In this document: piece by piece, positions 41,163 through 45,136 of the stretch
Layout: every line of letters begins with the position of its first letter
Numbering within the stretch: position 1 is the stretch's first letter
DNA from: Pseudodesulfovibrio sediminis
Lineage (GTDB): Bacteria > Desulfobacterota > Desulfovibrionia > Desulfovibrionales > Desulfovibrionaceae
Direction: 5' to 3'
Assembly (NCBI RefSeq): GCF_020886695.1
Contig: NZ_AP024485.1
Location: forward strand, 1,559,001-1,623,000
DNA length: 64,000 nucleotides
Notes under the pieces: generated by a model
What the model was told of the DNA's origin: nothing
Seen by the model: only the letters and a program-made list of their open reading frames with translations
Databases searched by the model: none
Position numbers and translations under genes: made by a program

Positions 41163-42428
41163 ATGTCCCAAGACACATTCAAAAAAGCTCTCGCCGTCGG
41201 TCGTCCGCCGAACGTCGTTCAAAACTTCCCCGGCTCCCAGGCCCTGCTGGTCAGCGGCAAGGTCATTGACCGCGCCATGACCGCCAAAGGCGGTGCCATG
41301 ACCATCGCTGCCAACGGCCGTAATATTTTCATTATAGAAGGCGCCCTCAAGGCCGCCCAGCGCGCCAACGCAGCGATCATCATCGAAATCGCCCGGTCGG
41401 AAGCCACATACTGTCCGACAACGCTGTGGAACATCGCCCGCAGGATTGACTACCTCTGCAACAAGCTCGGCATCACCATTCCGGTAGCCGTTCATGCAGA
41501 CCATTATTTCATGAAAAAATGGGATGACGTGGCCGTTGCCAAAGCGGAAATCCCTTCCCTGTTCGAAACAGGCGTGACCTCCATCGCCATCGACGCATCA
41601 CACATGACCGACGATCTCAACCTGCTCGCCAACATCGAAGTCTCTCCATCCATCCCTTCCTGGGCTGGCTACGAGACCGAAATCGGCGAGATCAAAGGCG
41701 CGTTCGGTCTGTCCAGCCCGTTGGAAGCCAAGTTCCTGTGCCAGGGACTCAACGCCCACGGCCTGTGCCCGGACTGGATCGCCCTGAACAACGGCACCAC
41801 CCACGGCATCGAAGCATCAGGCGAAGGCATCCAGGTGGAACTGACCGCTGATATTCACAAGGCTCTGGAACCCTACGGCACCTCCGGCGCACAGCACGGC
41901 ACCTCTGGCAACGACTCCGACCGTCTGCGCGCCATCGCCGCACAGACCGCCACCACCAAGGCCAACGTGGCCACTGCGCTGCAAATGATCGGTTGGGGCG
42001 TGAAGGTCAACGACTTCGGCAACGCCATCATGGACGGCGATCACTTCGCCAAGGTCCCGGGTGAAGGCGTGGACGACGCGCTGTGGGACGAAATGGTCGC
42101 TTACGCCGATGCCAACAACATCAAGGGCGGCGACTACAAGAAGCTCAACCTGGTCTTCGAACGCCGCTGGCAGGGACAATCCCAGGCCGTGCAACAGCGC
42201 ATGGCCCAGGGTGTGGAAGAATTCGTCTACGACCTGCTGGTCAACGTGTTCAACGCCCAGGACACCGCTCCCATCGCCTACGACCTCATCCTCGAAGCCG
42301 GTTCCTACGATCTCGGCCTCAAGAAGGAAAAGTTCGAGGACGCTGCCGAGTGGACCGAAGAAAAAATCAAAGCCATGGCCGCCGAGATCGACACGGACAA
42401 GGGGCCAGCCGGCGACTTTGACGATTAG
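41163..42428 (+). CDS. fba: Class II fructose-bisphosphate aldolase family protein
   Basis: 421 residues, longer than classical 340-360-residue members. Metal ligands of the class II fold are recognisable: AVHADHYF, SIAIDASHM, EIGEIKG, NNGTTHG and the phosphate-loop-like GTSGAQHGTSG. It should cleave or form fructose-1,6-bisphosphate (or a related ketose) with Zn2+. AAGGAGGAAGG precedes the start. The 3' end runs directly into the hairpin element at 42430. Confidence 0.85.
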   Translation: MSQDTFKKALAVGRPPNVVQNFPGSQALLVSGKVIDRAMTAKGGAMTIAANGRNIFIIEGALKAAQRANAAIIIEIARSEATYCPTTLWNIARRIDYLCNKLGITIPVAVHADHYFMKKWDDVAVAKAEIPSLFETGVTSIAIDASHMTDDLNLLANIEVSPSIPSWAGYETEIGEIKGAFGLSSPLEAKFLCQGLNAHGLCPDWIALNNGTTHGIEASGEGIQVELTADIHKALEPYGTSGAQHGTSGNDSDRLRAIAAQTATTKANVATALQMIGWGVKVNDFGNAIMDGDHFAKVPGEGVDDALWDEMVAYADANNIKGGDYKKLNLVFERRWQGQSQAVQQRMAQGVEEFVYDLLVNVFNAQDTAPIAYDLILEAGSYDLGLKKEKFEDAAEWTEEKIKAMAAEIDTDKGPAGDFDD

Positions 42429-42429
42429 A

Positions 42430-42562
42430 GGCGGCTTGCGATAGCGGCGCATCTGCACATTTTTCGGGCACTCTTCAATCCTCACCGTAGCTAGGCTACG
42501 CCTCCGGTTGAAGAGCACCCGAGAAAATGCACAGCTACACCACTCTCACAAGCCTCACGGCT
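42430..42562 (+). repeat. Left copy of a ~130-bp inverted hairpin element
   Basis: Begins 2 bases after the fba stop. Its reverse complement is identical, apart from one substitution and an insertion, to the element at 43851-44037. Each copy is itself an imperfect palindrome with arms of about 46 bases (outer GGCTTG...CAAGCC, inner CTCTTCAA...TTGAAGAG) around a centre containing GTAGC-CTA-GCTAC. Read outward from the cassette, nearly all non-Watson-Crick positions in the arms are G-T. A terminator (42581) follows. Confidence 0.9.
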
Positions 42563-42580
42563 CGTATTGGAAAAATTAAG

Positions 42581-42613
42581 AAAGCCCCCTGCCTAACGGC
42601 AGGGGGCTTTCTT
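42581..42613 (+). terminator. Terminator after fba and the hairpin element
   Basis: Perfect 13-bp stem AAAGCCCCCTGCC / GGCAGGGGGCTTT with TAAC loop, then CTTATATATTT. Confidence 0.9.
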
Positions 42614-42671
42614 ATATATTTGTAAGTCCGGCATCCTTTTGCATAGGGCAAATTAGATAAATCATTATATT

Positions 42672-43022
42672 ATGAACCTACTGCTGATAGTCAGATCGTT
42701 ACTGCCTAGTCTGGGCATACGGCTTGGTTTGGGATATAGAGTGGACATCGACCACGCCACCAAAAAGGAGAAGCCGTTGAACGTTGATAATATTATTGAA
42801 GGACTCATCATCGGGCTTGGCCTTGCAGTCATTCTTTGCCTGTTTAGAGCGGTCCGAATTGTTTTGATTGCAGTTGTCAAAAGTCCATACACTCTCGTCT
42901 GTTGGTTGAAGGGTAGAGCCATTGAATGGGAGTATGGAGAATTTGACCCCACACTTGGTAAATATCCCAACAAACGGAAAGCCGGATGGTTTAAGCGACA
43001 CGGTATCTACATCAAAAAGTGA
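42672..43022 (+). CDS. Unknown small membrane protein of the AT-rich cassette (first)
   Basis: 116 residues, not recognised. It has one or two hydrophobic segments (about 42-70, IIEGLIIGLGLAVILCLF then IVLIAVV) and a basic C-terminal tail ending KKRKAGW... then RHGIYIKK. There is no good ribosome site and the start follows AT-rich DNA. Composition is clearly more AT-rich than the neighbours, suggesting transfer. A reading frame on the other strand overlaps but has no hydrophobic or domain-like features. Confidence 0.5.
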   Translation: MNLLLIVRSLLPSLGIRLGLGYRVDIDHATKKEKPLNVDNIIEGLIIGLGLAVILCLFRAVRIVLIAVVKSPYTLVCWLKGRAIEWEYGEFDPTLGKYPNKRKAGWFKRHGIYIKK

Positions 43023-43150
43023 TTTCATCTTTCACCCACTTCTTTTGAAATCTACGTTTACGCTGCCATCGGAATTGACAATTCATCCGGCAGAGGAGCA
43101 TGTGTAATTGAAATCCAATATCTAATTAGTATGACGCGAATGGAGACAGC

Positions 43151-43753
43151 ATGTTCGATGAGAATAAAAGCACCGACCCAAAGAAGGAAAAGATTGAATC
43201 CTCGATAGAGCATATGAAGGAAAATCCCTTCATAACTCTCCCGCTTCAGGCGTACAAAACACGTCGAAACATGCTTCTTGTCGCAAGCATTTGTCTCTTT
43301 CAAGCTTGCTATGGGCAACTCGGTGGCATGTTTACCGTATTTGGCAACACTCTGACTTTCCCCAAAATCCATTTTAACTTTCTTTTGATCTGCATAAGTG
43401 CTTATTTTATTAGTTACTTTGTCATGCTGTGCTGGCCTGCCAAAATGGAATGGCAATTGCGATGCACAGGAATCTCTTCCATGTTTTGGGATGACACCCC
43501 GAAAAAGATTACAGCTTACCAGGTGATAGATAGTATTAGAGAGAGCGGGAAACCTGAAGAAAAGGCACTGCAAGAGCTTCTGGATCGGCTCGCTGCTTTT
43601 GAAGCAACCTTTTGGGACCATCAAAAAGCTTGTTGGCGTAGTTTCCACATTTGGGAGTTTGGAGGCCCTTTGCTTCTGAGCCTCTCTGGCACTCTGGGGC
43701 TGCTTGGTCGAATTGTATTCGATCTCTTTTTGCGGTGTCCGGCAGTTCGTTAA
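43151..43753 (+). CDS. Unknown membrane protein of the AT-rich cassette (second)
   Basis: 200 residues, not recognised. Charged N-terminus, then membrane segments at about 40-62, 73-97 and near the C-terminus (about 172-192). The region between (SIRESGKPEEKALQELLDRL) is amphipathic. GGAGACAGC precedes the start. It is preceded by the other unknown gene and both sit in the same direction between the inverted hairpin elements. AT-rich composition suggests horizontal origin. Confidence 0.65.
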   Translation: MFDENKSTDPKKEKIESSIEHMKENPFITLPLQAYKTRRNMLLVASICLFQACYGQLGGMFTVFGNTLTFPKIHFNFLLICISAYFISYFVMLCWPAKMEWQLRCTGISSMFWDDTPKKITAYQVIDSIRESGKPEEKALQELLDRLAAFEATFWDHQKACWRSFHIWEFGGPLLLSLSGTLGLLGRIVFDLFLRCPAVR

Positions 43754-43802
43754 ATTCATTGGAGTCTACCTACTATCAATAGTACGCACCAATCCAGCCA
43801 AC

Positions 43803-43835
43803 AAAAAAAAGACCCCGCCGAAAATCGGCGAGGCC
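43803..43835 (-). terminator. Terminator of ychF
   Basis: Read on the minus strand: CGCCGA-TTT-TCGGCG core with flanking CC/GG pairs, followed by eight T residues. Transcription of ychF thus passes through the right hairpin element before stopping. Confidence 0.85.
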
Positions 43836-43850
43836 TATATATTTCTTTCT

Positions 43851-44037
43851 AGCCGTGAGGCTTGTGAGAGTGGTGTAGCTGTGCATTTTCTCGGGTGCTC
43901 TTCAACCGGAGGCGTAGCCTAGCTACGGTGAGGATTGAAGAGTACCCGCTATACCTGAGGCATAAGATCTTGTACGGCTCGAAGACTCGCCTACAATTCA
44001 CTTAAAATGTGCAGATGCGCCGCTATCGCAAGCCGCC
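43851..44037 (-). repeat. Right copy of the inverted hairpin element with a 55-base insert
   Basis: Mirror image of the element at 42430-42562. The two copies differ by one base (GTGCCCG versus GTACCCG) and by about 55 extra bases here (about 43949-44003), placed at the internal bulge of the hairpin. The end abuts the ychF stop (44039), just as the other copy abuts the fba stop. Confidence 0.9.
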
Positions 44038-44038
44038 G

Positions 44039-45136
44039 CTAAACATTAAACAGGAAGTGGACTACATCGCCATCCTTCATGACGTAGTCCTTGCCTTCGA
44101 CTTTGAGGACGCCCTCGGAACGGCATTTGGATTCTGAGCCGAACTTCACGTAATTATCGTAGCTGATGACCTCGGCGCGAATGAAACCGCGCTCGAAATC
44201 GGTGTGAATGACACCGGCTGCCTGCGGGGCCTTGTCGCCGTCGTGGATGGTCCAGGCGCGGACTTCCTTCACACCGGCAGTGAAATAGCTGATCAGGCCC
44301 AGCGAGTGGAAGCCGGTACGGATGATCTGATGCAGGCCGGATTCCTCAATGCCGTAGGATTCGAGAAATTCCTTTTGCTCTTCCTCGTCGAGACCGACCA
44401 GTTCTTCTTCCATCTTGGCGGAAATCTTGACGAACTCGGCGCCACGTTCAGCGGCCAGCGCCTTGACTGACGCCACATACTCGTTGTCTTCGGCCACACC
44501 GTCTTCATCGACATTGGCGCAATAGATGACGTTCTTGGCCGTGATCAGATGCAGCTCGGCAAGCAGGTCACCAAGCGCCTTGTGCTCACCGGGGAACGTG
44601 CTGGCAGGCTGCCCTTCGTTCATGTGGGCGATGAGTTGCTTGGCCACCTCGATCTTCGGAGCCAGGGTCTTGTCGCCCTTGAGTTGCTTTTCCATGCGCT
44701 CCAAACGATTGTCCAGAACCTGAACATCAGCGAGGATCAGTTCGGTTTCGATCACCTCGATGTCGCGGATCGGGTCCACCGAGTTGGACACGTGGATGAC
44801 GTCGTCATCATCAAAGCAACGGACCACGTGCAGAATAGCCTGTGTCTCACGGATATTGCCCAGAAATTTATTGCCAAGTCCTTCGCCCTTGCTGGCACCG
44901 GCCACCAGACCGGCGATATCCACGAAATCGACCGTGGAACTCTGCACCCGTTGGGGTTTGACCAGATCGGACAACACTTCAAGGCGGCTGTCCGGCACCG
45001 GCACCACAGCCTTGTTCGGCTCAATGGTACAGAATGCATAGTTGGCACTCTCGGCGTTTTGCGCCTTGGTGAGTGCATTGAACAAAGTGGATTTGCCGAC
45101 ATTGGGCAGGCCGACGATACCTATACTGAGTGACAT
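44039..45136 (-). CDS. ychF: Ribosome-associated ATPase YchF
   Basis: 366 residues from the ATG at 45136, with AGGAG five to nine bases upstream. Obg-like G domain: [20 protein letters not shown], then the C-terminal TGS domain ([29 protein letters not shown]). YchF/OLA1 prefers ATP over GTP and binds ribosomes. It is convergent with fba across the cassette. Confidence 0.95.

Follow-up and report, generated by a model that had tools for sequence, protein, structure and literature searches.

The two inverted hairpins that follow fba and ychF in Pseudodesulfovibrio sediminis are rather likely to be members of a dispersed family of non-autonomous, MITE-like palindromes of Pseudodesulfovibrio, which have moved as one folded strand and whose settled copies decay neutrally. 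The mobile palindrome is probably recognised as a folded DNA strand rather than as locally made RNA. Folding of this strand is important to the family, the simplest role being that of a single-stranded DNA intermediate of movement, and no selection for RNA was seen at the fba-ychF locus itself.

The arrangement that the original prediction had described was found in the 64-kb window, that is, the whole stretch of DNA that was analysed. Palindromes of about 122 nt and about 99% identity follow fba and ychF in inverted orientation, one of them with a 55-nt insert; each abuts the stop codon of one of these convergent genes and has a terminator-like hairpin on its inner side (Table 1). The unit of copy 1 measures 122 nt from GGCTT to AAGCC, and GGCTT begins 4 nt past the TAG of fba and, on the opposite strand, 4 nt past the TAG of ychF. 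The inverted arms match over 98 nt with 99% identity (42465-42562 and 43851-43948) and over 47 nt with 91% identity (42417-42463 and 44004-44050). Because the two copies are nearly identical, they point to a relation by recent copying or conversion. The end that carries GGCTTNCGATAGCGG is termed the A-end here and the opposite one the B-end; the strand that starts at the B-end, which is the outward strand at the fba-ychF locus, is termed the B-first strand. The A-end of copy 1 lies on the side of the fba 3' end and that of copy 2 on the side of the ychF 3' end; the better-folding, B-first strand is accordingly the minus strand in copy 1 and the plus strand in copy 2. The interior is AT-rich, also as predicted, with a GC content of about 41-49% between the copies versus 54-63% outside (400-nt windows), and its two ORFs matched no Pfam or PHROGs family; a single NCBIfam match was weak (E 0.015) and far under its cut-off.

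Table 1. Features of the fba-ychF locus, in positions of the window. A slash marks an element end.
Feature	Position	Strand	Evidence
fba, class II fructose-bisphosphate aldolase	41163..42428	+	ORF; Pfam PF01116, E 2e-21
Copy 1, C/GGCTT...AAGCC/T, A-end toward fba	42432..42555	+	Covariance model R1, 138 bits (copy 1 belongs to the training alignment of R1)
Intrinsic terminator hairpin, B side of copy 1	42577..42622	.	17-nt perfect inverted repeat and T-run
AT-rich ORF, 116 aa, without family match	42672..43022	+	
AT-rich ORF, 200 aa, probably a membrane protein	43151..43753	+	Read from sequence
Terminator-like hairpin, B side of copy 2	43803..43834	-	Read from sequence
Copy 2, A-end toward ychF, split by the 55-nt module	43858..44035	-	
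55-nt module within copy 2	43949..44003	.	
ychF GTPase	44039..45136	-	ORF; Pfam PF06071, E 5e-39

A covariation-based search in related genomes, which the original prediction had proposed, recovered a dispersed family that is not private to this locus. The P. sediminis genome gave 11 BLAST pieces at about nine places, and BLAST matches occurred in 23 of 60 genomes including its own, all among the 36 genomes of the genus and none among the 24 of other families. The exact A-end pattern was present in 21 of the 36 genus genomes, with up to 34 occurrences per genome, and the reversed pattern gave one hit in total. The covariance model matched 32 of the 36 genus genomes and 16 of 150 genomes of the order, five of the latter outside the genus in four genera of the same family and one of these five (G170) by a single weak hit; its E-values are rough, a palindromic place may count on both strands, and at most 98 candidates were scored per genome. 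In diverged relatives the long stem and the tip are retained and the ends differ; among 17 of them, some from genus members, the A-side lies at a gene 3' end in 11 and otherwise in six. No match was found for the exact A-end pattern in viral contigs, for copy 1 by blastn in plasmids and phages, or for the diverged relatives by blastn in viral, plasmid and phage collections.

The element is about 122-124 nt long and has the exact ends C/GGCTT...AAGCC/T. The preceding C occurs in 98% and the trailing T in 97% of 160 copies (2 of the 162 collected copies were left out by length), and the flanks further out are not conserved; some of the 162 are orthologs or overlapping double calls, and the copies are not independent. 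Conserved, unequal outer arms are followed by a variable yet complementary inner stem and a conserved tip. A second hairpin lies beyond the B-end in 78 of the 162 copies, mostly 19-20 nt past it among the 60 positions listed, and the same motif appeared on the A side, the mirror control, in 2 of 162. Nearly all distinct second hairpins (50 of 51) were near an element, most loci having been fetched for holding one. This hairpin begins 5'-GGAG, a start that resembles tagged REPs.

Several further observations accompany the family. The 55-nt module is a recurrent insert found in either element arm (the window; L006, L059, L109, L111, L275), and it occurs in at least six distinct contexts, five near element ends and one in a related hairpin. 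Four tandem copies of an element variant with a 173-bp period are present in the P. sediminis genome (L011 and L351; G000:C1:2276412-2277051). Locus L291, the G026 ortholog of the L038 gene, holds a relic with little beyond both element ends and the interior deleted. Among the G131 loci L335-L337, a related hairpin sits between 23S and 5S rRNA in L335, and the stretches with the other two copies match the L335 region at 99.8% identity or more. In G006 all 30 exact A-ends fall within 0.83-2.9 Mb of a 3.4-Mb contig, with none closer to the contig ends, a clustering that is possibly related to replication. Another palindrome, of about 57 bp (CCGGGGGAAGGGGAGG...CCTCCCCTTCCCCCGG type), is present in many fetched loci, for example L025:1893-1949 and L183:797-855.

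Placement and orientation were strongly constrained. With genes called by a codon model, 155 of the 162 copies were usable (seven with short flanks were dropped), and 139 of these have the A-end toward the 3' end of a gene: 94 are convergent, 44 lie in tandem pairs at the 3' end of the upstream gene, and one has no gene called opposite. The other 16 include six divergent copies and seven in reverse tandem orientation, so that tandem pairs split 44 in the usual orientation versus 7 reverse. The distance from stop codon to A-end is bimodal, with 82 of 139 copies at 20 nt or less and 42 at 45-130 nt, many of these directly after a terminator. A-side stop codons are TAG in 94 of 139 copies versus 239 of 493 elsewhere, a moderate excess on which TAG was rejected as a strict target; TGA accounts for only 7 of the 139 and is also rare among convergent B-side genes (8 of 101). 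Hairpins scoring at least 10 were found within 90 nt upstream of 44 of 158 elements versus 0 of 158 at a control placed 300 nt further up, which is mostly coding and hence unmatched. Part of the dyad symmetry next to the element may arise after insertion.

Orthologous sites were found both filled and empty, an A-end being present in 5 of 30 orthologs of one gene and in 1 of 30 of another (245 nt inspected). Whether fba and ychF are interrupted in relatives could be checked as the original prediction had suggested, and in two of them the genes are only 100 nt (G004) or 87 nt (G020) apart. In the part of the 30 fba loci that was readable in the right orientation, G006 carries an element copy 1 nt past the fba stop. 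G019 has a single copy adjoining fba. We infer movement from such presence and absence across species, not between near-identical strains; in the comparison of G025 with G035, one of the two candidate differences proved to be a copy common to both genomes and the other an isolated A-end motif next to a length difference of 24 nt. In being multi-copy and dispersed, with inverted repeats and filled and empty sites, the element fits a MITE-like interspersed palindromic repeat.

The two strands of the element differ markedly in folding. The fold of copy 1 (42433-42554) has an energy of -80.6 kcal/mol for the outward (minus) strand versus -52.9 kcal/mol for the inward strand. Against shuffles, copy 1 with short flanks gave z -10.1 outward and z -5.1 inward, with 0 of 200 as stable in each case. 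The outward fold contains 44 Watson-Crick and nine G-T pairs, with 1x1 mismatches G-A, G-A and G-G and no A-C, which bears out the predicted excess of G-T and G-A without A-C on this strand. These mismatches, which the original prediction had weighed against random decay, do not represent separate decay events: those of the outer arms are consensus positions of the repeat family. Across 100 copies and 30 outer pairs read on the B-first strand, there were 2168 Watson-Crick pairs, 443 G-T, 257 G-A, 27 A-C, 79 other and 26 gapped. The alignment comprised 100 copies out of 140 distinct ones, thinned by hand, and the pairs were likewise set on it by hand. Of 158 copies, 153 were more stable on the B-first strand under RNA parameters and 156 under DNA parameters.

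Covariation in the outer arms follows the same strand. Read B-first, position pair 17-116 is TG in 55 and GC in 45 copies, 18-115 is GC in 53 and TG in 37, 7-126 is GC in 51, TG in 39 and TA in 6, and 21-112 is GA in 93 and AG in 6; two-sided changes of outer pairs thus keep wobble or G-A on the B-first strand. RNAalifold predicted 34 pairs, 20 of them with two-sided changes. The covarying outer positions may represent a few old haplotypes exchanged by conversion. Among the 140 distinct copies, wobbles of the outer arms number 627 versus 74 between the strands, on few consensus positions, and those of the inner stem 106 versus 104. The predicted selected strand therefore finds support in that the outward strand folds well and covaries, and it finds none as ongoing selection at the locus, given the even inner-stem count.

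Close orthologs show how settled copies change. The original prediction had named equal loss of pairing on both strands as a result that would argue against selection, and 13 close orthologous pairs came near to it, with 44 one-sided and four two-sided changes and with Watson-Crick/wobble changes at 12 on the B-first versus 9 on the A-first strand (13 of 78 orthologous pairs, with element identity of at least 90%, equal length and not both members already used). We infer that B-first pairing matters while the element still moves and not afterwards. In more distant orthologs both inner arms are sometimes replaced together (25 of the 78 pairs displayed), and this pattern points to conversion or to other copies having taken their place.

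A structured RNA, either antisense or a 3'-UTR element of the convergent gene, could also account for the strong fold and the covariation on one strand if that outward strand were selected to tune mRNA stability or translation. The 82 A-ends that lie no more than 20 nt past a stop codon are near the ribosome-stalling distance, under 16 nt, described for REP in passages of PMC12306157, and PMC2229807, in its part on ERIC, reports an orientation-dependent effect of ERIC RNA on mRNA stability. We consider this explanation rather unlikely, however. The strand that folds better runs antisense to the gene beside it, and in the 44 tandem copies it would not form a convergent gene's 3' UTR; single-stranded DNA is for this reason likelier than RNA as the folded form of the B-first strand. 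In recent orthologs pairing is lost with no clear preference for either strand, and the inner stem shows no bias. The element is missing at the same genes in many relatives, and no Rfam family reached its gathering score in the 64-kb window, where permissive E-values gave sub-threshold hits only, mostly on terminators. The earlier proposal of antisense RNAs to the 3' ends of fba and ychF is unlikely.

The reading of a mobile DNA palindrome can be put as a sequence of steps. An enzyme would recognise the B-first strand, outward at the fba-ychF locus, as a folded single strand, and this strand would be inserted near hairpins at gene 3' ends. Pairing would be selected in copies that are still moving, and settled copies would decay neutrally on both strands. 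Template switching during replication at neighbouring hairpins would perfect stems and make long terminator palindromes by the A-end. The copies after fba and ychF, in their usual places, would then happen to bracket an AT-rich insertion.

Profiles of candidate mobilising enzymes (PF01797, TIGR02249 and PF08388) were searched and none was associated with the element. The Y1 transposase (PF01797) was rejected as mobiliser, since 7 of the 11 genomes that have at least 11 exact A-ends lack it; of 12 Y1 loci inspected among 43, 11 lacked an element-end motif and one (L202) has such a motif about 1.2 kb away. The integron integrase was likewise rejected, with matches above the curated cut-off in 0 of 36 genomes and tyrosine-recombinase matches below it in 36 of 36, as was the group II maturase, whose domain occurred in 1 of 36. 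No target-site duplication was detectable in 32 comparisons of flanks by offset and length (z -4.2 to 2.6), and in several of these comparisons the flanks resembled each other less than after shuffling (z as low as -4.2).

Long palindromes occur at terminators beside the element. Among the 42 copies lying 45-130 nt past a stop codon, 11 have a palindrome with ungapped arms of at least 29 nt (two of the 11 are orthologs), which starts no more than 1 nt from the stop codon in nine and ends 5.5-6.5 nt before GGCTT in ten by one count, or 4-6 nt before it in most by a second count. Arms of at least 25 nt were found at 9 of 31 element-adjacent terminators versus 0 of 107 others (p 5e-7), and in this comparison the palindromes start 0-6 nt past the stop and end 4-7 nt before the element. 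The filled site in G032, the sole A-end among 30 fetched orthologs in the stretch read, has a perfect palindrome of 35 bp. The closest other orthologs of this gene have ordinary terminators; further orthologs hold an apparently decayed element (L266) or related hairpins (L275, L280). It is conceivable, though we regard it as doubtful, that the element, by inserting or by its presence, rewrites the 3' region of the adjacent gene: the stretch from stop codon to terminator would be copied in inverted form beside the element, which would yield near-perfect palindromes from the stop codon to about 5 nt short of the element.

These palindromes also bear on the possibility that the element spreads passively, without dedicated transposition, as hairpins undergo template switching and ectopic gene conversion with one another. 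Hairpins are reported to be both created and repaired by template switching (PMC8794818). At orthologous sites whole inner stems are replaced on both arms, and, as read from the sequence, one palindrome extends 8 nt into the element (L120) and another meets the remnant of another copy. At a further gene the G025 arm is perfect and those of G034 and G035 share a three-base mismatch cluster, but this clustered difference gives no sure direction of change, as the arm of the more distant G026 is like that of G025. Moreover, empty sites would not be filled by conversion alone, and sharp, nearly invariant termini together with strong orientation suggest site-specific recognition. Passive spread is therefore improbable, more so than a structured RNA.

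A mobile cassette with hairpin ends that carries the two genes, as the original prediction had considered, is very improbable: near-identical inverted copies do enclose AT-rich genes, and at least two relatives have fba and ychF without these genes between them, but the element disperses singly, each copy is in a place and orientation taken singly elsewhere, for example after fba in G006 and G019, and model R1 detected no element at the loci of the five other genus genomes that hold relatives of the 200-aa protein. A second bracketed cassette suspected at the G029 relative of this protein was rejected, its two B-like motifs being chance occurrences by model R1 and sequence reading. In our reading the cassette is a separate AT-rich insertion that lies between two normally placed elements.

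The mobile palindrome can be compared with several known systems. attC sites have a hairpin directly after a stop codon that folds on the antisense strand, and group IIC introns insert beside terminator hairpins. The element resembles them in its hairpin after the stop codon on the antisense strand, or beside a terminator, and differs from them in the scarcity of integron integrase and maturase given above; no attC-type core motif was noticed in it by eye. The general kind is known and is ERIC/YPAL/REP-like, whereas the Pseudodesulfovibrio family and its palindromes look new. A search of the open literature on palindromic repeats of Desulfovibrio or Pseudodesulfovibrio and on similar topics found nothing on the present family, and the nearest kinds, as far as the passages on them in PMC2229807, PMC3733652, PMC2267715 and PMC12306157 go, are YPAL, ERIC and REP.

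YPAL (RU-2) is described in PMC2229807, in its part on this repeat, as a 168-bp Yersinia palindrome that is not AT-rich, has filled and empty sites, and targets sites spanning or adjoining dyad symmetry. By this description the element is alike in being a short palindromic repeat that is not AT-rich, with filled and empty sites and a target next to dyad symmetry. It differs in its strong 3'-end orientation and companion hairpin, YPAL being compared by description, and in having no detectable duplication, whereas YPAL makes target duplications of 3-26 bp according to the same passages. ERIC (RU-1; 127 bp, enterobacterial) is similar in length, in forming one long imperfect hairpin and in being intergenic and group-limited, but the account of it in PMC2229807 gives 5'-TA termini and target duplications, in contrast to the C/GGCTT...AAGCC/T ends without detectable duplication seen here. 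With REP and REPIN-RAYT the element would share the proposed logic of single-stranded hairpin recognition; it is much longer, and Y1 (RAYT) is absent in 7 of 11 high-copy genomes. Finally, the Gmet_R1005 entry in PMC2700814 lists 24 'predicted short RNA elements' in Geobacter metallireducens with the central palindrome GRCGTAGCGCTGCTACGCC. This core, compared by its stated sequence alone, fits the element tip, with three or fewer substitutions in 20 of 181 copies, and differs in that Gmet_R1005 is described in that entry as RNA elements, for example 5' of lysine and arginine genes (PMC2700814).

With more than 100 collected copies, the family lets constraint on a folded strand be told from decay after insertion, and it illustrates that covariation in hairpin repeats can suggest RNA where mobile DNA is likelier. 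The palindromes bounded by stop codons offer a natural record of how perfect hairpins arise in bacterial genomes. If they are coupled to insertion, the inverted copies of the 3' region would be a new footprint that a mobile palindrome leaves on integration.
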